Position numbers and translations under genes: made by a program
In this document: piece after piece, positions 6,624-23,822 of the stretch
Position numbering within the stretch: position 1 is the first letter of the stretch
How the letters are laid out: each line of letters starts with the position of its first letter
The notes under the pieces: model-generated
Told to the model about the DNA's origin: nothing
The model's input: the letters and a program-made list of their open reading frames with translations, nothing else
The model's database searches: none
Source of the DNA: a virus
Length of the DNA stretch: 25,475 bases
Direction: 5' to 3' (one strand)
Virus record (IMG/VR): IMGVR_UViG_3300030102_005996
Coordinates: 1,253 to 26,727 of that record

Positions 6624-7341
6624 ATTATTAAATTTAATTTTATTTTTATCATTGTCAGTTTTTGCTGATAATGAAATATATGTTGATCAATCTGGTAATT
6701 CAGCAAGTGTTGATCTTGAACAACTTGGTTCTTCCAACTTAATTGGTGGAACTTCTGCTGTTTCAGGCACAATGACTGCTTTAGACCTAGACGGTGTTTC
6801 AATGACACTTGATATAAACCAAATAGGAAGTTCAAACGTCTTTAGATCAGATGCAATTGATGGAGATAACTTTACTGGATTCTTTGAGTTTGATGGTGAT
6901 TCAAATATTATGGATATTCTGATGAACAGCACAGGTCTTATAAGTGCTGATTACGTTAACCTGAATATTGATGTTACAGGTTCAAGCAATGAGTTTGATC
7001 TAGAAATTGGTGAAAGTGCTGATTCTTCTTATCTTGATCTGGATTGGATAATTCTAGGAGATAGCAACATTTTAAATTTTGATATTGATTATGAAAATGC
7101 AATCAATTATCTTGATATAAATGGAAGCTCAAATGAGATAGATTTTACAGCTAGTGGTTATTCAGGAACAACATCTGCTGATTCTGGATATTTCTACTTA
7201 GATTTAGACGGAAGTTCAAATGATATTGACATCACACAATCATCTACACTTGCAAGAGATTATCTTAAACTTATTACGAATACTTCTAATTCTTCTATTT
7301 GTATCAACCAAAACGATCAAGGTACAAGCACAGGATGTTAG
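6616..7341 (+). CDS. Secreted curlin-like acidic repeat protein
   Basis: A Sec signal peptide (residues 1-17, MNKLLNLILFLSLSVFA) is followed by a mature chain of short beta repeats centred on G-S/D-S-N turns at residues 38, 71, 94, 122, 148, 170 and 199, with a degenerate copy near 223. The first units (IYVDQSGNSASVDLEQLGSSN, TLDINQIGSSN) match the curlin x-I-x-Q-x-G-x-x-N pattern, and spacing is 22-33 residues against 22-23 in CsgA. Later units become Asp-rich (YLDLDGSSNDIDITQ). Two Cys (229 and 241) occur only at the C-terminus. Placement directly behind csgG with an 8-base overlap makes it the likely exported cargo. Whether it polymerises into amyloid is untested. Its last 122 bases also encode the start of the FecR protein. 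Confidence 0.8.
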   Translation: MNKLLNLILFLSLSVFADNEIYVDQSGNSASVDLEQLGSSNLIGGTSAVSGTMTALDLDGVSMTLDINQIGSSNVFRSDAIDGDNFTGFFEFDGDSNIMDILMNSTGLISADYVNLNIDVTGSSNEFDLEIGESADSSYLDLDWIILGDSNILNFDIDYENAINYLDINGSSNEIDFTASGYSGTTSADSGYFYLDLDGSSNDIDITQSSTLARDYLKLITNTSNSSICINQNDQGTSTGC

Positions 7342-8374
7342 TATTGGAGATGTTTCTGAACTAAGAGGCAATGCACAGATAATAAGGGAAGAACCCTTAA
7401 ATGCTTTTGTAGATTTTGATATACAAAGCAATGATGAAGCGATAACGTCAAATGGTCGTATGGCTATTACGTTCCTTGATGATTCAATTGTAAAACTCAC
7501 TGAACATAGTCAATTATTAATTAATGAATATATTTATGACCCAAATCCTTCAAAGTCTAAAATGGCTCTTACCTTTGCTCTTGGCACGACCAGATTTATT
7601 TCTGGCAATGTAGATAAATTAAATAAAAAAAACGTAACTCTTAAAACACCAACCGCAAACATCCTAATCAGGGGAACGGATTTTACAGCAACCGTCAACG
7701 AACTTGGTGAATCTTTAATTATTCTTTTACCTGATGCTCTTGGTTTATCAAGTGGAGAAATAGAAGTTATAACAGCAACAGGAAGTGTCATACTTAATAA
7801 ACCGTTTCAAGCAACTACTGTATCTGTTTTTGAAAGCGCACCAAGTAAACCAGTAATTCTTGATCTATCTTTGGATTTGATTGATAACATTCTTATTGTT
7901 TCACCCCCAGAAGAAAAGATTGTAGAAGAAGAAACTCTTTACACAAGTAAGGGAAATTCAATTCTTGATTTTAATGATCTTGATGTTGATTACCTTGAAG
8001 AAGATTTGCTTGATAATGAGTCTGATCTGGAATTCACTGAACTTGATATTAATTATCTGGATGTGAATTTTCTTGAGGATTTGTTAGATATTCTTGATGA
8101 ATTAGAAATCCAAGAAGAAGAAGATCAACTACAAGCAGATGTTGGTTCTGTTCAATTGTCTGGAACAACCTTTGGGCAAGACCTTGATACACAGATCACC
8201 ACATTTATAACAGGCGAAAAATTAACGATTATAAGAAGCGTTAATAATACTGCTAGGGTTGATATAAATTCTGATGATAGTTATACAGTAATCTTAATAC
8301 AAGATGGAGTTTCAAGAACTATAAAAATTAATGGTGGAAGTAGTAGTGTTATAAGAATAAGGCAAGAGAATTAA
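7220..8374 (+). CDS. Periplasmic FecR-domain protein
   Basis: FecR domains are periplasmic beta-rich sensor or scaffold modules. After a Sec-type signal (a hydrophobic run near residues 13-30, predicted cut after QA at about 37), residues 42-165 fit the FecR domain: DVSELRGNAQI, DEAITSNGRMAITFLDDSIV, LALGTTRF-like, then TPTANILIRGTDF. Residues about 229-306 are extremely Asp/Glu/Leu-rich (DLDVDYLEEDLLDNESDLEF), and a beta-rich tail ends INGGSSSVIRIRQEN. ATG 7220 has GGAAG just upstream and overlaps the curlin-like gene by 122 bases; TTG 7250 is the alternative. There is no sigma-factor or TonB-receptor neighbour, so this is not a classical iron-signalling FecR. FecR proteins beside CHASE2 cyclases occur in bacterial genomes, which suggests it may feed the cyclase at 8804. 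Confidence 0.85.
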   Translation: MILTSHNHLHLQEIILNLLRILLILLFVSTKTIKVQAQDVSIGDVSELRGNAQIIREEPLNAFVDFDIQSNDEAITSNGRMAITFLDDSIVKLTEHSQLLINEYIYDPNPSKSKMALTFALGTTRFISGNVDKLNKKNVTLKTPTANILIRGTDFTATVNELGESLIILLPDALGLSSGEIEVITATGSVILNKPFQATTVSVFESAPSKPVILDLSLDLIDNILIVSPPEEKIVEEETLYTSKGNSILDFNDLDVDYLEEDLLDNESDLEFTELDINYLDVNFLEDLLDILDELEIQEEEDQLQADVGSVQLSGTTFGQDLDTQITTFITGEKLTIIRSVNNTARVDINSDDSYTVILIQDGVSRTIKINGGSSSVIRIRQEN

Positions 8375-8399
8375 AAAAAAGGGTGTATTGCTACACCCT
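8373..8399 (-). terminator. Rho-independent terminator of the 8405-8608 gene
   Basis: A perfect 8-bp stem AGGGTGTA/TACACCCT (8380-8387 and 8392-8399) has a four-base loop. Read on the minus strand it is followed by eight T residues (8373-8380), five bases after the minus-strand stop. On the plus strand, just after the FecR stop, it lacks a T-run but the hairpin could still weaken read-through into the cyclase. Confidence 0.85.
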
Positions 8400-8404
8400 A
8401 GAAT

Positions 8405-8608
8405 TTAAACTGCAAAACCTCTATCTCTTAGAACTGCTTCAATACAATTTACGACATTCTGTCTTACATGAAATAAATTATCATCAAAGTTGTCCCAGTT
8501 TTCGTCAAACTGTTCACCCATTAAGTCAAGCACTGATCTTCTATGAGTTATTAAGTCTTCTGAATCCCATTTCAAAAAATCTTTTTTTGTTATATTTAAG
8601 TCTTTCAT
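8405..8608 (-). CDS. Small acidic hypothetical protein inside the curli-like cassette
   Basis: This 67-residue protein starts MKDLNITKKDFLKWDSED and ends RQNVVNCIEAVLRDRGFAV. It is acidic and helical, with no signal peptide or known motif. I chose ATG 8608 because GAGG lies five bases upstream; an in-frame ATG at 8635 would add MNFENNEVK. It is an isolated minus-strand gene within a plus-strand late region, with its own promoter (8642-8669) and terminator (8373-8399), which is the classic layout of an independently expressed accessory gene. Its upstream region is nearly the same as that of the gene at 14928-15209, so both should be co-regulated. Function is unknown. Confidence 0.7.
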   Translation of the reverse strand: MKDLNITKKDFLKWDSEDLITHRRSVLDLMGEQFDENWDNFDDNLFHVRQNVVNCIEAVLRDRGFAV

Positions 8609-8641
8609 TTTTACCTCGTTATTTTCAAAATTCATATGTTT

Positions 8642-8669
8642 ATAATAACAAACACACACAAAAATACAA
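8642..8669 (-). promoter_or_regulatory. Sigma70-like promoter, copy B
   Basis: On the minus strand TTGTAT (8664-8669) and TATTAT (8642-8647) are spaced by 16 bases, upstream of the 8405-8608 gene. The block TATTATAAACATATGAAT is also present upstream of the 14928-15209 gene (copy A, 15240-15267), and both copies have an A/T tract with GTTG farther upstream (8681-8699 here). Conservation at two unlinked genes supports function. Confidence 0.75.
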
Positions 8670-8692
8670 GGGCTAGATGTAAAAAAAAACAA

Positions 8693-8803
8693 CTTTTTTA
8701 TCTGGTTTTGGAGGTGGGTGGTGCTACATTTTTGAGGTTTTGAACTTTGACACCACCCAAAATAAATGAAAAAATCTTTAATAAAGATTGATGCAAATAT
8801 AAC
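8693..8803 (+). other. Intergenic region with hairpin before the cyclase gene
   Basis: This stretch between the divergent promoter region and ATG 8804 contains a 9-bp stem TGGGTGGTG/CACCACCCA (8715-8723 and 8751-8759) with a 27-base loop. A TTGACA lies at 8747-8752 but I find no good -10 at the right spacing. No clear Shine-Dalgarno precedes ATG 8804. The hairpin may be a leader structure or a weak attenuator; no coding frame is supported here. Confidence 0.5.
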
Positions 8804-10582
8804 ATGAAAAAATTAATATTCATAATACTTCCAATATTAATCACTCCATTACTATTACAAACAACCTTTACAGAAGTTATAAAGCTTAGAACATTTGACG
8901 GTTTAGTTCACAAATATGAAGAATCTGGTTTTTTTACAATCCTTAATATTACAGAACAAGATATAGAAAATGAGGGTGGTTATCCTTTATCTAGACAAAG
9001 ACTTGCAGAAATCCATATTGAACTTTTGCAAAAAGGTGCTCTTGGTGTAGGTTGGGTTCTTGCTTTTCCACAAGAAGATAGATTTGGTGGCGATCAAGAT
9101 TTTGCAAATGCGCTTTGCTACGGTGGAAGTGTCATAGCAATGTATGAAGATGGAAAAGGTATTTATCCAGAAACATCTGGAACTGTAATCATAGGTAATA
9201 ATAATGTTGGTGGGATTGATTCTACAGGGGTTGTGCAAAATATAGACATCTTAAAAAACTGTACAAATCAAGGCATAGCAATTGCACCAACAGAAGTAGA
9301 TAATCTTGTAAGAAGAATACCTTTGCTTCTTAGAACACCTGATGGTTTTGTATCTGCATTTGGTACAGAAGTTATGAAAGTCTTAGCAGGTAACACTACA
9401 TATATTGTAAAAACAAATGATCTGGGTATAGAAGAAATAACTGTACAAGGTCTTGCACCAGTAAAAACCGATTCTTTGGGCAGGAAATGGATATCTTGGG
9501 TAAATACAAAAGAAACTACATTAAAAGAAATGGATGTAAAAGGGCGATATGTTTTTGTTGGTTTTACTGCAACAGGCATAATGCCACAAATTGCAACACC
9601 AGTTGGATTATTAGAACCACATAAGATACAAACTGCTCTTGCAGAATCAATTTTAATACCGAACTCTCCAAGTGTTCCAGATTGGAGTTATGGGCTTGAA
9701 GTAGCTATATTTGTGCTTTTTGTAGCTCTCTCATGGCTTGTATTGACTTCTTTTGGTATCACTTGGGGTTTAGGTATAGGTGTTTTATTAATGGTTTCTG
9801 TGGCATCTGGTGGATATACCCTCATTTACAAAGGTTATCTAGTTGATGTTACTTGGACACTAATCTCACAATTCATAACAAGTGCAATTGCTTTTTACTT
9901 ACGCTTTAGAGAACAATACAAACTAAGGCAACAAATTAAGAAACAATTTGAACATTACTTAGACCCAAGACAAGTAAAAAGGTTGCAACAAAACCCAGAA
10001 GTTTTAAGACTTGGTGGTGAAAAAAGATACTGCACCTTTTTATTCACTGATGTTCGTGGTTTTACTGCTTTATCAGAAAGTCTAGAACCTGAACAAGTAA
10101 CATATATTATGAACAAAGCACTTACAGTGCAACAAAATGCAGTTCAGTCTAATGGTGGGATGGTTGATAAGTATATTGGTGATGCAATGATGGCCATATT
10201 TAATGCACCTCTTGATTTAAAACACCACGAAACAAAAGCACTTGCATGTGCAATAGACATACAAAACGGAATGAAAGAACTTAATAAAGAACTACAATCC
10301 AAAGACATTGCTCCTGTGCAAATAGGAATAGGCATAAATACAGGATATGCGATTGTAGGCAATATGGGTTCACAACAAAGGTTTGACTATACAGCAATTG
10401 GTGATGCAGTGAACGTTGCAGCAAGACTTGAAAGTGGAACAAAAGATGCAGGTGTTGATCTTCTCATTGGTCAAACAACTGAAAATGCTATAGAATTTGA
10501 TTTGATTCCTTTGAAACCAATAAAGGCAAAAGGAAAAAAAGAAAAATTACAGGTGTATACGTGGGACTCAAACTCAATCTAA
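8804..10582 (+). CDS. CHASE2-domain receptor class III adenylate cyclase
   Basis: This protein should sit in the inner membrane, sense a periplasmic signal through CHASE2 and make cAMP from ATP in the cytoplasm. It has an N-terminal membrane helix (about 4-21), a periplasmic CHASE2 domain (about 22-290, with LLQKGALGVGWVLAFPQED and RRIPLLLR), three membrane helices (about 295-317, 319-342 and 346-368) and a C-terminal cyclase domain (about 405-590). Metal-binding Asp416 (FTDVRGFT) and Asp460 (DKYIGDAMMA), the adenine-selecting Lys456 and Thr530 (DYTAIGD), and transition-state Asn537 and Arg541 (NVAARLE) are all present, so it should be active and ATP-specific. At 592 residues it is a normal-length member. 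It follows the FecR gene and overlaps the spanin gene by 22 bases, so it is co-transcribed with lysis genes. Confidence 0.93.
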   Translation: MKKLIFIILPILITPLLLQTTFTEVIKLRTFDGLVHKYEESGFFTILNITEQDIENEGGYPLSRQRLAEIHIELLQKGALGVGWVLAFPQEDRFGGDQDFANALCYGGSVIAMYEDGKGIYPETSGTVIIGNNNVGGIDSTGVVQNIDILKNCTNQGIAIAPTEVDNLVRRIPLLLRTPDGFVSAFGTEVMKVLAGNTTYIVKTNDLGIEEITVQGLAPVKTDSLGRKWISWVNTKETTLKEMDVKGRYVFVGFTATGIMPQIATPVGLLEPHKIQTALAESILIPNSPSVPDWSYGLEVAIFVLFVALSWLVLTSFGITWGLGIGVLLMVSVASGGYTLIYKGYLVDVTWTLISQFITSAIAFYLRFREQYKLRQQIKKQFEHYLDPRQVKRLQQNPEVLRLGGEKRYCTFLFTDVRGFTALSESLEPEQVTYIMNKALTVQQNAVQSNGGMVDKYIGDAMMAIFNAPLDLKHHETKALACAIDIQNGMKELNKELQSKDIAPVQIGIGINTGYAIVGNMGSQQRFDYTAIGDAVNVAARLESGTKDAGVDLLIGQTTENAIEFDLIPLKPIKAKGKKEKLQVYTWDSNSI

Positions 10583-14760: not shown

Positions 14761-14928
14761 CTAGTGAATTGTCGGTTTCTTTCCATATTTCATAACGTAG
14801 CATAGAAGTTCCCAATCATCTTGATCAAGTTCATCTTCCATTTCTTGAAAGGTGCAATACATCAAATCAAGATTACAATACTTCCTTTGTAAATCTTCTA
14901 TTAGTTCTAATAATACTGTATTCATCAT
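14761..14928 (-). CDS. Small hypothetical protein (55 aa)
   Basis: From ATG 14928 (TAATG overlap with the upstream stop; AGAGG upstream) the product starts MMNTVLLELIEDLQRKY, continues NLDLMYCTFQEMEDELDQDD, and ends WELLCYVMKYGKKPTIH. It is acidic and helical with two isolated Cys. A second ATG at 14925 would remove one residue. It is expressed with the gene at 14928-15209 from promoter copy A. No homologous family is recognised. Confidence 0.6.
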   Translation of the reverse strand: MMNTVLLELIEDLQRKYCNLDLMYCTFQEMEDELDQDDWELLCYVMKYGKKPTIH

Positions 14929-15209
14929 TAAGACCTCTTGATTGAAAGGTCGCCCCACTTATCTACAAACTCAACTGTAGTATTTTTGAAGTTGAAGTTT
15001 GAATCCTCAAGAGCTTCTTTAGTAACATCAAGAATGTTAAGAGTATCCCATTTCATAGCTTTTGAAAGAACAAGACCAAGAGCTTCTATATCACTGGCAT
15101 TGTAGCCATCAACAAAAGCTTTTTTCTTCATTGCTTCCAACAATGTAGGCATTACACTCTCAACCATTTCATCAGTTGACATATTTTCTAGATTAACATT
15201 TAGTTTCAT
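14928..15209 (-). CDS. Hypothetical early protein (93 aa) behind promoter copy A
   Basis: From ATG 15209 (GGAG upstream) the product starts MKLNVNLENMSTDEMVESVM, contains LLEAMKKKAFVDGYNASDIE and LVLSKAMKWDTLNILDVTKE, and ends FVDKWGDLSIKRS. It is mostly helical with no membrane segment. An in-frame ATG at 15233 would add MNIENGVK, matching the extra MNFENNEVK of the gene at 8405-8608. The upstream regions of these two genes are nearly the same for about 90 bases while the proteins differ. Function is unknown. Confidence 0.65.
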   Translation of the reverse strand: MKLNVNLENMSTDEMVESVMPTLLEAMKKKAFVDGYNASDIEALGLVLSKAMKWDTLNILDVTKEALEDSNFNFKNTTVEFVDKWGDLSIKRS

Positions 15210-15239
15210 TTTTACTCCGTTTTCAATATTCATATGTTT

Positions 15240-15267
15240 ATAATAGCAAACCTGTTTATAATTGCAA
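15240..15267 (-). promoter_or_regulatory. Sigma70-like promoter, copy A
   Basis: On the minus strand TTGCAA (15262-15267) and TATTAT (15240-15245) are spaced by 16 bases. The region also holds a direct repeat, TTGCAATTATAAAC then TTGCTATTATAAAC, about 17 bases apart. An A/T tract with GTTG at 15279-15297 could end transcription from the HNH gene or act as an upstream element. The same layout recurs at 8642-8669. Confidence 0.78.
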
Positions 15268-15295
15268 CCCCTTAGGACAAAAAAAAGCAACTTTT

Positions 15296-15625
15296 TTAAA
15301 AGGGCAAATCGTCATCTTCAAGGTCTTTATTCTCATACAACTCTTTTGCATACTCTTGACCTGCAGTTTCTTTCATACCGTAGTGTTTAAAGAATTTATA
15401 TTCATCACCAAACTTTGTATGTAACTCCTGATGGTGAAACATACATAATGGTATTACTTGATCATCACCTGCTTTTAAACCCCAACCACGTTTGCCATCA
15501 GATGGTTTTAATAGGTGGTGTACTTGAATTGGTCCTTTATGTGTGTAAAACCCTGCTTTTGAGATCATGCAGGGTTTTTTTGATACTTTTAGTAAATGCT
15601 CTTTATCAACTAATCTTTTTGCCAT
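15296..15625 (-). CDS. HNH-type endonuclease with SSB-like acidic tail
   Basis: The 109-residue protein has an HNH/recombination-nuclease pattern: IQVHHLLKPSDGKRGWGLKA (about 33-52), then DDQVIPLCMFHHQELHTKFGDE with His64, His65 and His69, split here as DDQVIPLCMF and HHQELHTKFGDE. The layout 'HH...G.KAGDD.VIPLC..HH.ELH..GDE..F' is that of small phage HNH nucleases found among recombination genes. The C-terminus is DLEDDDLPF, very like the acidic tip of bacterial SSB (DDDIPF), which in SSB recruits repair enzymes. It lies in the ERF/nuclease operon and starts inside the upstream gene's end (16-base overlap). A recombination or DNA-processing role is likely. Confidence 0.82.
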   Translation of the reverse strand: MAKRLVDKEHLLKVSKKPCMISKAGFYTHKGPIQVHHLLKPSDGKRGWGLKAGDDQVIPLCMFHHQELHTKFGDEYKFFKHYGMKETAGQEYAKELYENKDLEDDDLPF

Positions 15626-18055: not shown

Positions 18056-18259
18056 ATGAAACTTTCAGAATGGTTAAAAAAAGAAGGTCTGACACATGAA
18101 GATTTTGTTACCTATCTTAAACAAAACGATACACTTGTTAGTAAGGGTGCTATTGATAAATGGTGTAATGGTCAAAGAATACCAAGAAAACCAGAAATGC
18201 AAAAAATAACTGTTGCAACAGGTGGAGAAGTTTGCCCAAACGATTTTTATGATTTGTAG
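18056..18259 (+). CDS. Cro-like helix-turn-helix regulator
   Basis: The 67-residue protein starts MKLSEWLKKEGLTHEDFVTY and has a helix-turn-helix in LVSKGAIDKWCNGQRIPRKP, followed by KITVATGGEVCPNDFYDL. The final 'ATGGEVxPNDFYDL' pattern is typical of small Cro/YdaS-type regulators in proteobacterial phages. It should control the divergent region upstream and perhaps the two other ACCCAA boxes at 18268 and 20724. No Shine-Dalgarno is visible before ATG 18056, and the predicted promoter would yield a leaderless or nearly leaderless message. It opens the rightward replication operon. Confidence 0.85.
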   Translation: MKLSEWLKKEGLTHEDFVTYLKQNDTLVSKGAIDKWCNGQRIPRKPEMQKITVATGGEVCPNDFYDL

Positions 18260-20723: not shown

Positions 20724-20748
20724 TTTTTGTCTAAAATCACCCAATATG
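20724..20748 (+). promoter_or_regulatory. ACCCAA box overlapping the ParB-like start codon
   Basis: Twenty-five bases match 18268-18292 at 21 positions; the last 15 are an exact inverted copy of 18017-18031. The final ATG is the start codon of the ParB-like gene. A second CACCCAAT occurs just upstream at 20717-20724, so the box is partly doubled. The core TTTTGTCTAAAAT (20725-20737) recurs at 23833-23845. Confidence 0.6.
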
Positions 20749-21324
20749 GATATTTTGTATAAAAAGACTGATGAAGTAGTTCCATACTTTCAAAATCCAA
20801 GAGTTATCTCAGAAACAGCAATTAATGAAGTTGCTAAGTCTATCAAGCAACATGGTTTTCAACAATGTATTGTAATAGATGAAAATAATGTTGTAGTTGC
20901 AGGCCATACAAGATTACTTGCAGCAAAACAACTTGGTATGGAAGAAGTTCCATGCAAAATTTATAAAGATAGTGAAGATCAAATAAATGCATATCGGTTA
21001 GCTGATAACAAGGTTGGTGAATTAACTACTTGGGAAGATAAAACTTTACAGATAGAACTTGATAAACTTACTGGCATGGAGGTTGCAGGTTTCCAACCAG
21101 AACAAATGGATTTTGTACAGTTTGATGATTCACAAAGCGATGTAAATATTGAAGAACCACAAGCAGGATATCATGCAAGTGATCTCACACAATTAGTACC
21201 GATTACTTTTTATCTTGATAGAGAAGATAGAGAAGAAATAATGGAAAAACTTGAAAAGGTCAGAGATAATGAAAACTTACAAACAAAGAGCAATGCTCTT
21301 TTATTTATTATGAGAAAACTATGA
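20746..21324 (+). CDS. ParB/sulfiredoxin-fold protein (first copy)
   Basis: The ParB-like fold binds DNA or hydrolyses nucleotides. The 192-residue product has VVPYFQNPRV (residues 11-20), VAKSIKQHGFQQ, and the signature VVAGHTRLLAAKQLG with GHTR at 53-56. It continues RLADNKVGELTTWEDKTL, as in the N-terminal part of ParB-methyltransferase fusions, but then ends with a different C-terminal domain (VPITFYLDREDREEIMEKLE) and no methyltransferase motif. ATG 20746 has no ribosome site and sits inside the ACCCAA box. It overlaps the cupin gene's start by four bases. It may act in DNA modification or transcription control; partitioning is unlikely without ParA. Confidence 0.82.
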   Translation: MDILYKKTDEVVPYFQNPRVISETAINEVAKSIKQHGFQQCIVIDENNVVVAGHTRLLAAKQLGMEEVPCKIYKDSEDQINAYRLADNKVGELTTWEDKTLQIELDKLTGMEVAGFQPEQMDFVQFDDSQSDVNIEEPQAGYHASDLTQLVPITFYLDREDREEIMEKLEKVRDNENLQTKSNALLFIMRKL

Positions 21325-22019
21325 TATTAATACCAAACCCAAAACATGCAGAAGAAATAGATCAGGTCAATACAATGTATCCGACAAAAATGATTTCAAT
21401 ACAGGATGATTATGAACTAGAACCAACAATCGGTAATTTATATGGTTTTGTAACAGAAGGTTCATATCTAATTAAGTCAGATGGAAGAGAGTGGTTAGCA
21501 GGTGCAGGTGATTTCTTTAGTATAAAGACTGATACAAAAGATAAAACAACTGCAAAAAAACTTTCATCTGAGGGACAAATGTTTTGGATTCTTCGTTATG
21601 GATTTCAAGGAATTAACATGCTTGGTCAATCAGAAGATCATGGAAGACTTTCATATATTGATGGTTGTACTGATAGTTTATTAATAATGCCACCCAGACT
21701 TGGTGATCCGTGTTTGAACTATTTACACTTTCCAATGGGCATAGATCAGACACAACATTTACACCCAAGTATTAGAATGGGCATTGTTATTGGTGGCAAG
21801 GGTGAAGCATTCCAAAAACCTGATGGAAAAAGAACAGGTTGGGAAGAAGATTTATCAAAAGGCATGATGTTTTGTTTAGAAGAAGGTGAGGTACATTCCT
21901 TTAGGACTGCAGAAAACTTTATGGATATCATTGCTTATCACCCAGATTCAGACTTTGGGCCAACAGATACAAACCACCCCATGCTTAACAGAACTTACAT
22001 AGATCACGGAAAAGGGTGA
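21321..22019 (+). CDS. Cupin-fold protein
   Basis: The 232-residue product looks like a bicupin. The N-terminal half has GFVTEGSYLIKSDGREWLAG and AGDFFSI, a cupin strand pattern without metal ligands. The C-terminal half has HLHPSIRMGIVIGGKGEAF with His146 and His148, then KGMMFCLEEGEVHSFRTAEN with Glu187 or 188 and His192, the H-x-H...E...H metal set of active cupins. Such folds include dioxygenases, isomerases and sugar epimerases. Translational overlap with the ParB-like gene suggests a joint function. No substrate can be named; a small-molecule, DNA-base or protein target are all open. Confidence 0.75.
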   Translation: MILIPNPKHAEEIDQVNTMYPTKMISIQDDYELEPTIGNLYGFVTEGSYLIKSDGREWLAGAGDFFSIKTDTKDKTTAKKLSSEGQMFWILRYGFQGINMLGQSEDHGRLSYIDGCTDSLLIMPPRLGDPCLNYLHFPMGIDQTQHLHPSIRMGIVIGGKGEAFQKPDGKRTGWEEDLSKGMMFCLEEGEVHSFRTAENFMDIIAYHPDSDFGPTDTNHPMLNRTYIDHGKG

Positions 22020-22038
22020 TTTTGGGGGGTCTAAAGGT

Positions 22039-22082
22039 ATTAACCACCTTCTAAAAATGCAATAGAGGGCATGTCAGAGGAC
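22039..22082 (-). repeat. Intergenic structured element, copy 2
   Basis: Read on the minus strand, 22039-22080 matches plus-strand 23859-23900 at 35 of 42 positions without gaps; in plus orientation it resembles copy 1. A 7-bp stem CCTTCTA/TAGAGGG with one G-T pair and loop AAAATGCAA forms at 22047-22069. The last bases, AGAGGAC, include the ribosome site of the following gene, so folding could influence its translation. Confidence 0.6.
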
Positions 22083-22087
22083 AAAAA

Positions 22088-23302
22088 ATGAGCCAAGTAT
22101 TCAAAAAAAAGGATATAGACAAAGATGTCTATACTTTAGCAATAGAAAGAATCAATAGAACATATGACATTTTTGATAATGTTGTTGTTATGTTTAGTGG
22201 TGGAAAAGATTCAACTGTGTGTCTTAACTTAGCTTTACAAGTAGCAAAGGAAAGAAACAAATTACCTTTGCATGTTTATTTCTTTGATGAAGAAGCAATC
22301 CCATATGAAACAATTGATTATGTTGCAAGAGTTGCAGACCTTCCAGAAGTAAAAATGAACTGGTTGTGTTTACCAGTAAAACACAGAAATGGATGTAGTC
22401 GTAATCACCCATTCTGGTATCCTTGGGCACCAGAAGATCAAGACAAGTGGACAAGACCATATCCAACACATGAATCTGTGCTTGGTCTTGATGATTTTCC
22501 AATGTTTCCAAGAAAAAAAGAAGAAAGACCATCAGTTCCAGAATGTAATGGTTTGTTATTCCCACCACAGGAATGGGGTGAGGTTGGTGTAATTATGGGA
22601 ATAAGGTCAGAAGAAAGTTTGATGAGGTACAGAACAATACTACAAACAAGTGGCAAAAGGTATGAAGATTATATGATAAACCTAAAATCCAAAACTGCAT
22701 TAGCAAATGTTGTAAAGGTTTGCCCCATCTATGATATGAAAACAGTTGATGTTTGGACTGCGCCACAAAAGTTTGGTTGGGATTACAACATTACCTATGA
22801 CATATTAGAAAAGCTAGGCCTGACTCACTTACAACAAAGATGTGCACCTCCATATGGTGAAGAACCAATGCGTGGTCTTTGGCAATATTCAATAGCTTTC
22901 CCAGAATTGTGGGATAAAATGCAAAGTAGAGTGCCAGGGAGTGCAACTGCAGCTAGATACGCCAATACAGAACTTTATGCTTTTGGTGGATTACCAGATA
23001 AACCAAAAGATACATCATGGCCTGAATTTATCCAATATTTTCTAGACAAACATCCTGAACCACATAAATCAAAAATAGCTAAAGTTATAAACGATTTTAT
23101 ACGTGTACATAATAAAAAAACATCTGATCCAATCTTGTCAACACACCACCATGAAAGTGGTATTGGTTGGAAGTTTCTTCTTCGTATTGCAATGCGTGGA
23201 GATTTCAAAGGCAGGAAGATACCGAACTTTACAGCAGATAATCAAAAGTATTTACAAAGTAAAAAAGCATATGAGGAGGAAAGATATGGTAAAAAAGGGT
23301 AA
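22088..23302 (+). CDS. PAPS-reductase-like protein (IbrA-type)
   Basis: This 404-residue protein belongs to the adenine-nucleotide alpha-hydrolase fold of PAPS reductases. FSGGKDSTVCLNLAL (about 36-50) is the PP-loop that binds ATP or PAPS. HVYFFDEEAIPYETID, LCLPVKHRNGCSRNH, GVIMGIRSEESLMRY and KVCPIYDMKTVDVW follow the longer IbrA-type subfamily rather than CysH. It has a Cys at CSRNHPFWYPW and another at RCAPPYGEEP. The next gene encodes an IbrB-type ParB protein, overlapping by 17 bases, a known pairing in enterobacteria and phages. The natural reaction is not established. AGAGGA eight bases before ATG supports the start. Confidence 0.88.
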   Translation: MSQVFKKKDIDKDVYTLAIERINRTYDIFDNVVVMFSGGKDSTVCLNLALQVAKERNKLPLHVYFFDEEAIPYETIDYVARVADLPEVKMNWLCLPVKHRNGCSRNHPFWYPWAPEDQDKWTRPYPTHESVLGLDDFPMFPRKKEERPSVPECNGLLFPPQEWGEVGVIMGIRSEESLMRYRTILQTSGKRYEDYMINLKSKTALANVVKVCPIYDMKTVDVWTAPQKFGWDYNITYDILEKLGLTHLQQRCAPPYGEEPMRGLWQYSIAFPELWDKMQSRVPGSATAARYANTELYAFGGLPDKPKDTSWPEFIQYFLDKHPEPHKSKIAKVINDFIRVHNKKTSDPILSTHHHESGIGWKFLLRIAMRGDFKGRKIPNFTADNQKYLQSKKAYEEERYGKKG

Positions 23303-23822
23303 AGACAATCAACCTATAAATCAAATGCAATGGGTTGAAAGATCAAAGCTAAAAGCAAATGACTACAATCCTAATAGGGTTGCACCAACAGAATTAGAAC
23401 TTTTAAAAACATCAATCAAACTTTGTGGGTGGACACAACCAATTGTCATTCGTAAGTCATTTGAAATAGTAGATGGTTTTCATAGGTGGACTGTATCTGC
23501 TGATCCAGATATTGCTCAATTAACAGATGGTTTTGTGCCTGTGGTTTTTCTAGAAGATGCAGTTGATGAAGCACAACAGATAGCTGCAACAATCATTCAT
23601 AACAGGGCACGTGGCAATCATGGGATTATACCTATGACTGATATTGTTCGTAAAATGAAAGATAAACATAATTACACAGATGAAGAACTCATAAACATTC
23701 TAGGCATGGAACAAGAGGAAGTAGATAGGTTATATGATTACCGTCCTATGACTGAAAAAGGGAGTCAAGAGGAATTTTCTAAGGGTTGGGTGCCTGATAC
23801 AGGAAAAAGGGAATTTGATTAA
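23286..23822 (+). CDS. ParB-like protein, IbrB-type (second copy)
   Basis: From ATG 23286, with GAGGAGG upstream, the 178-residue product has LKANDYNPNRVAPTELELL, TQPIVIRKSFEIVDGFHRW with the GFHRW variant of the ParB GxxR loop (residues 64-68), and TIIHNRARGNHGIIPMTDIV. The NRARGxHG motif marks the IbrB subfamily that pairs with IbrA-like PAPS-reductase proteins. A longer frame from 23103 lies wholly inside the previous gene and is rejected. The C-terminal end (SQEEFSKGWVPDTGKREFD) is acidic. The pair is bounded by inverted copies of the intergenic element. Confidence 0.87.
   Translation: MVKKGKDNQPINQMQWVERSKLKANDYNPNRVAPTELELLKTSIKLCGWTQPIVIRKSFEIVDGFHRWTVSADPDIAQLTDGFVPVVFLEDAVDEAQQIAATIIHNRARGNHGIIPMTDIVRKMKDKHNYTDEELINILGMEQEEVDRLYDYRPMTEKGSQEEFSKGWVPDTGKREFD

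Follow-up and report, generated by a model that had tools for sequence, protein, structure and literature searches.

A promoter and leader module repeated at two accessory-gene slots of a marine phage, with an AUG at its predicted transcript start

The closest described case to the moron cassette that we propose for one of the two loci analysed here is pid of phage P22 (PMC3573128). In T4-like phages, repeated promoter and stem-loop cassettes (PeSLs) accompany gene shuffling (Arbiol 2010; Comeau 2014; according to the account in PMC4503421), and cluster K mycobacteriophages carry the SAS/ESAS, a motif of the Shine-Dalgarno (SD) region that contains no promoter and occurs in many copies per genome (PMC3203893). 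With regard to translation, 5'-terminal AUGs on SD-leadered mRNAs of E. coli bind 70S ribosomes and can be translated (Beck, Fleming and Janssen, PMC4965119), and expression from the SD start of ptrB, which has a 26-nt leader, needs the upstream AUG (uAUG; PMC4965119). Established leaderless genes of Deinococcus have a TANNNT beside the open reading frame (PMC12340547), and mRNAs that lack a leader are frequent in Caulobacter (PMC4117421).

Two copies of a promoter and leader module

The window, i.e., the whole stretch of DNA that was analysed, makes up 25.5 kb of an IMG/VR phage contig, itself a fragment, with a length of 26.7 kb. Its minus strand carries two modules of ~95 bp, copy A (15297-15207) and copy B (8699-8606), which agreed far above chance. 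Their local alignment scored 64, whereas 5000 Markov shuffles averaged 18.7 and reached 38 at most; the highest score of any other tile of the window was 37, and BLAST of A against B gave E = 8e-14. The ~90-base module at two genes proposed in the first-pass annotation was thereby borne out, and both minus-strand copies had the element order described there: AAAAAAGTTGnTTTTTTTT, a TTG hexamer, 16 nt, TGnTATTATAAACATATGAATnTTGAAAA, the SD and TAAAAATGAAA. The tandem TTGCwATTATAAAC that it had noted in copy A was also real (15267-15254 and 15249-15236). Across the entire 26.7-kb contig, TATTATAAACATATGAA occurred exactly twice. The window's best other match to module A was at a primase-helicase gene (18916, plus strand), which starts with ATGAATATTGAAAATGAA, close to the module's ATGAATATTGAAAA. 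The elements of the two copies are:

15279..15297, minus strand: A/T tract of copy A, AAAAAAGTTGCTTTTTTTT, UP-element-like, beginning inside the HNH gene stop codon and aligning with copy B at 18/19 positions
15240..15267, minus strand: predicted promoter of copy A, TTGCAA (15267-15262), 16 nt, TGC, TATTAT (15245-15240), also present at site A in relatives
15231..15233, minus strand: ATG of copy A at the predicted +1, 6 nt past the -10, sharing its frame with the SD-led ATG that follows after 24 nt
Beyond the -10 of copy A, minus strand: TATTATAAACATATGAAT-A-TTGAAAA, the SD GGAG (15218-15215) and TAAAAATGAAA
8681..8699, minus strand: A/T tract of copy B, AAAAAAGTTGTTTTTTTTT, from the alignment with copy A
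8642..8669, minus strand: predicted promoter of copy B, TTGTAT (8669-8664), 16 nt, TGT, TATTAT (8647-8642)
8633..8635, minus strand: ATG of copy B at the predicted +1, 6 nt past the -10, sharing its frame with the SD-led ATG that follows after 27 nt
Beyond the -10 of copy B, minus strand: ATGAAT-T-TTGAAAA, the SD GAGG (8617-8614) and TAAAAATGAAA

Judged by its hexamers, the module consists of a sigma-70-type promoter with an extended -10 (TGnTATTAT, 16-nt spacer) and a leader. Both copies have -35 and -10 hexamers within the sigma-70 spacing of 15-18 nt; TTGCAA-16-TATTAT fits at 9/12, and TTGTAT-16-TATTAT is weaker. The spacer has diverged almost wholly between the copies but the A/T tract, the -35 and the stretch from the -10 to the SD have been kept, which argues for selection on expression. 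From +1 to +15, A and B differ at a single base. The coding regions downstream are unrelated, as had been stated from the first reading: BLASTP of the A cargo against the B cargo yielded only one notable alignment, of the leader-encoded residues MNxEN..VKMK.

An AUG at the predicted transcript start

Sigma-70 RNA polymerase usually starts transcription 6 nt past the -10 hexamer. In both copies this position, a +1 predicted from the -10 spacing, is occupied by an in-frame ATG inside CATATG (15233 and 8635), which the first-pass annotation had missed. Its statement that conservation is confined to non-coding DNA is doubtful, since the block from CATATG on probably comprises the first codons of a leaderless frame. 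Among 63 site-A sequences, i.e., the promoters at the position of copy A in distinct relatives, 19 had an ATG at offset 6, and any other offset had at most 5. Thinning to 30 sequences of <70% identity left 7 ATGs at offset 6, 1 at offset 7 and about 0.5 per other offset; this thinned set was used for spacing instead of leader clustering at 72% gapped identity, which gave three clusters only and was uninformative on such A/T-rich sequence. The relatives (1.6 Mb) contributed 94 clusters of promoter-like sites ahead of SD genes; every case of offset 6 among these lay at site A or B and was in frame. About a third of the site-A promoters have the uAUG and about two thirds do not, indicating that the slot can do without it.

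The distance from the uAUG to the SD-led ATG was 24, 27, 30, 36 or 39 nt, a multiple of 3 in every case. The leaders of loci L173 and L176 differ by a codon-sized gap, and the site-B leader of L078 is wholly re-drawn relative to its site-A leader, its length still being a multiple of 3. Locus L025 has the uAUG only, and L192 has lost the SD and kept the 5' AUG. The exceptions were L198, with an in-frame uAUG but a stop codon right before the SD-led ATG, L203 and L070B, with the uAUG out of frame, and L168 and L204, with a short closed frame from the uAUG. Counted by independent lineage, 7/9 were in frame and open, compared to null expectations of 0.13 for in frame and open and 1/3 for frame alone. 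For frame alone, 7/9 corresponds to roughly P = 0.008, our own estimate from counts of modules that are related by descent, so that the cases are not fully independent. L003, L025, L031 and L037 were picked by an ATG-containing pattern, and the frame and spacing result does not rest on them; L059, L071, L078, L172, L173 and L208 were collected via their HNH or cyclase protein.

These observations bear on the simplest account of the module, namely ordinary duplicated promoters of host sigma-70 type with a normal SD leader, in which the ATG of CATATG would be incidental and the conservation of frame inherited. The hexamers do fit sigma-70, both copies retain an intact SD and main ATG, many relatives manage without a uAUG, and related modules imply common ancestry. 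However, the ATG spike at exactly 6 nt survives thinning, leader length varies by multiples of 3 only, L078 B versus L078 A included, and L025 and L192 would be left without a good start. We consider this account somewhat unlikely.

Several further arrangements were observed at these promoters. At site A of L168 and L204, a predicted leaderless frame of 14 codons, MSGAWRVKTTQNRP, has its ATG 6 nt after TATAAT and is identical in the two contigs. In L175, L179, L186, L205, L223, L236 and others, the site-A leader has no 5' AUG and contains a small hairpin immediately ahead of the SD; the leader hairpins GATACTCACAGAGTAAGG, GATGCTCTTAGAGCAAGG and CGCTCACAGAGCAGG apparently show compensating changes. 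A Cro-like gene of the window (18056-18259, plus strand) appears to be leaderless (TTGGGT-17-TAGACT-N6-ATG, no SD) and is kept in the clade, which makes leaderless translation plausible for these phages.

Cargo exchange, head copying and candidate regulation of the two slots

The genes and cassette parts at the two sites are:

15296..15625, minus strand: HNH/DUF968-like gene, conserved upstream neighbour of slot A
14928..15209, minus strand: site-A cargo gene of 93 aa, with the SD GGAG at 15218-15215 and a weak similarity to DUF937 that falls short of the Pfam cut-off
8375..8708, minus strand: site-B cassette, a putative moron, a complete insert that separates the fecR stop from GGAGGTGGGTGG, aligned with the empty sites of L065 and L066
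8405..8608, minus strand: site-B cargo gene of 67 aa, with the SD GAGG at 8617-8614 and no match to any family
8380..8399, minus strand: predicted intrinsic terminator ending the site-B cassette, also in a close relative despite a different gene

Slot A lies directly behind the HNH/DUF968-like gene, and a promoter is found there in nearly all 63 distinct relatives. In the 57 relatives that were readable, the first genes fell into about 35 similarity groups, unrelated to one another, and nearly all relatives have a gene at this position, as expected of a variable slot rather than an insertion. On this gene content, site A is a hypervariable slot for the first gene after the HNH gene in a leftward early operon. 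Homologues of the window's cargo occurred at site A in 8 relatives and elsewhere in one (L159:1383). The latter, on the contig of L142, has a promoter of the same class, and site A of that genome carries another gene. PHROG and Pfam gave no match for either cargo beyond DUF937 below the cut-off, and BLASTP found no cargo common to sites A and B in the relatives.

Copy B belongs to an inserted cassette, which the first-pass annotation had not recognised; it stands alone and antisense between the virion-region genes fecR and CHASE2 cyclase. In the alignment with L065 and L066, GGAGGTGGGTGG follows directly after the fecR stop with intact flanks, and fecR and the cyclase gene adjoin in most other readable relatives. 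These empty sites indicate that site B is a moron, with a conserved promoter and terminator and exchanged cargo; the insertion between neighbours is seen in the alignment, and its own promoter and terminator are read from sequence. The FecR-domain protein and the CHASE2-adenylate/guanylate cyclase (7220-10582, plus strand) are common in this marine phage group, and distant copies occur in phages HTVC008M and Melnitz. A 54% copy was found in a contig that bears the label Neomarinimicrobiota and may be a phage contig placed in that bin; homology of the cyclase to cellular genomes was uninformative as to the host. Elsewhere in the window (20746-23822, plus strand), a ParB-domain protein lies near a PAPS-reductase/DUF3440 protein, possibly as part of a DNA modification module.

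In the closest relative (contig IMGVR_UViG_3300030101_003549; loci L003, L058 and L064), both sites are occupied by the same two modules, at a distance of 5.9 kb from each other, and the genes adjoining them are about 98% identical to ours. Behind module A it has MSNNRDLTEAIESF.. and behind module B MKKVEQLNINNFEW.., neither of them related to our cargo. The site-B cassettes of the two phages consist of the same promoter and the same terminator (AGGGTGTAGCAATACACCCT plus a T run) with unrelated genes in between. L078 carries heads at A and B that match each other at all of 50 bp, are distinct from ours and are followed by unrelated genes. Own site-A heads recur in the contigs of L061 and L074, in two or three copies, and as weaker copies in those of L071 and L142, and L037 has our head type at A and an empty site B. 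Such repetition of own heads in several relatives indicates that heads are re-used within genomes in separate lineages; by these matches, the head is re-used and copied inside a genome. Among isolated phages no close relative was found: Venkman EXVC282S had only a methylase in common over that stretch (79.6%), and HNH homologues in phage isolates reached 37% at most.

A module that serves chiefly as a recombination anchor, PeSL-like, with repetition selected for cargo swapping and promoter activity secondary, would agree with cargo swapped within conserved bookends, with the identical heads of L078 and with the ERF-family annealing protein that the phage encodes. Conserved functional blocks around a diverged spacer are predicted by selection on expression and not by selection for plain homology. 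We regard anchoring as an unlikely main role.

The first-pass annotation had called the module a phage-specific early promoter, with both genes early and turned on by a phage sigma factor or activator. The module is indeed promoter-like and confined to the clade, and site A lies within the early operon; 'early' does not suit the antisense moron copy B. The motif search that it had suggested recovered the module at promoter position in four close relatives only (exact scan of IMG/VR) and no more than two copies in the 26.7-kb contig; most of the 52 exact-motif matches across all IMG/VR were chance. A candidate regulatory element was found in copy A:

15268..15277, minus strand: TCCTAAGGGG, candidate operator dyad (TCC-N5-GG) upstream of the -35

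TCC-N5-GG and TCC-N6-GG were each present in 27/63 site-A promoters, and the combined TCC-N5/6-GG pattern near the -35 in 31/63, compared to 0.74 in shuffles. The related CC-N5/6-GG occurred in 22/46 cro/yqaJ control regions (2.0 in shuffles); site-A promoters and the cro/yqaJ control regions of relatives have in common an operator-like dyad of the (A/T)TTCC-N5-GGAA type. This distribution suggests that the Cro-like protein or a partner may regulate slot A along with the early genes. The cro region of our own clade had no match to the dyad pattern. Copy B had no such dyad, so that the A and B heads may lack co-regulation; its absence would fit a constitutive moron.

Clade restriction, the position of site A and the dyads would accord with control of both genes by a phage factor. 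Against this, the hexamers resemble host sigma-70 elements, so that a polymerase or sigma factor specific to the phage need not be invoked; the 26.7 kb hold just the two known copies, and copy B lies alone in the virion region and lacks the dyad. The clade's cro promoter is TTGGGT-17-TAGACT, unlike the module, and the module was ruled out as the main early promoter because the cro/yqaJ region differs. We judge such control improbable. It seems very improbable that the +1 to +15 block serves to bind a protein, as an operator or an RNA element, rather than as codons: its near-invariance between A and B and a dyad over the -10 in several relatives (GTTGTTATAATAAC) would suit it, but in other lineages the block is entirely different and the ATG at +1 and the open frame are still there.

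A proposed control head for exchangeable genes and its comparison with known systems

We think it probable that the module heads two accessory-gene slots as their control element, with a transcript that begins at or near the in-frame uAUG, cargo that is exchanged and heads that are copied. The head would act as a sigma-70-type promoter composed of an A/T tract, a weak -35 and an extended -10, and the transcript would most likely start at the AUG or at most 2 bases from it. From this 5'-terminal uAUG the predicted frame runs stop-free into an SD-led AUG 24-39 nt downstream. The uAUG may bind 70S ribosomes directly and give an N-terminally extended protein, or it may load ribosomes that then use the SD start; with the frames joined, one protein with two possible N-termini would result. 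The phages would exchange the cargo and retain the head, and at site B the terminator too. The exchange and the copying between slots of one genome presumably proceed by homologous recombination, with flanks and heads as short anchors; the phage has a gene for an ERF-family annealing protein. No breakpoint was seen that would document exchange via a head itself.

More tentatively, and short of an even chance in our estimate, this marine phage family may use a two-start leader as the standard head of interchangeable genes, combining leaderless 70S and SD-dependent 30S initiation, with two isoforms possible and the head itself copied. A literature search for an in-frame 5' AUG on interchangeable genes found no precedent. 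Such a head would explain the continued expression of small accessory genes during swapping. The heads also represent natural parallel constructs for testing whether a 5'-terminal AUG functions when its frame continues into an SD start, a question that the E. coli data on out-of-frame cases (PMC4965119) had brought up, and the two slots are where new anti-defence or superinfection genes of these marine phages might be sought.

Site B resembles the phage moron P22 pid (PMC3573128) in being a small ORFan, divergent from its neighbours, with its own predicted promoter and terminator and absent or replaced in relatives; in contrast to it, the gene here is replaced between a kept head and terminator, and the same head is re-used at a second slot. 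Like the PeSLs of T4-like phages, as the account in PMC4503421 presents them, the repeated head goes along with gene shuffling. The phage is not T4-like, though, and relative to the PeSLs of that account, which unite an early promoter and a stem-loop in one repeated motif and occur in many copies in hypervariable regions, its head has no stem-loop, the terminator lies apart at the other end of cassette B, two copies are present in 26.7 kb, and an in-frame 5' AUG is added. Up to about five weak copies occur in G006. With the SAS/ESAS (PMC3203893) the module has in common that a short control sequence is repeated at the starts of different gene families in one phage genome; its sequence differs from the GGGATAGGAGCCC located there a few nt ahead of the start. 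As in ptrB (PMC4965119), a predicted 5'-end AUG precedes an SD start by a few tens of nt, here GGAG or GAGG with the ATG at 24 and 27 nt. Whereas the E. coli cases (PMC4965119) were chosen out of frame, the phage frame is continuous and the arrangement recurs over unrelated genes. As in the leaderless genes of Deinococcus (PMC12340547), the -10 stands directly ahead of a start codon; to this the phage heads add an SD-led start in the same frame.
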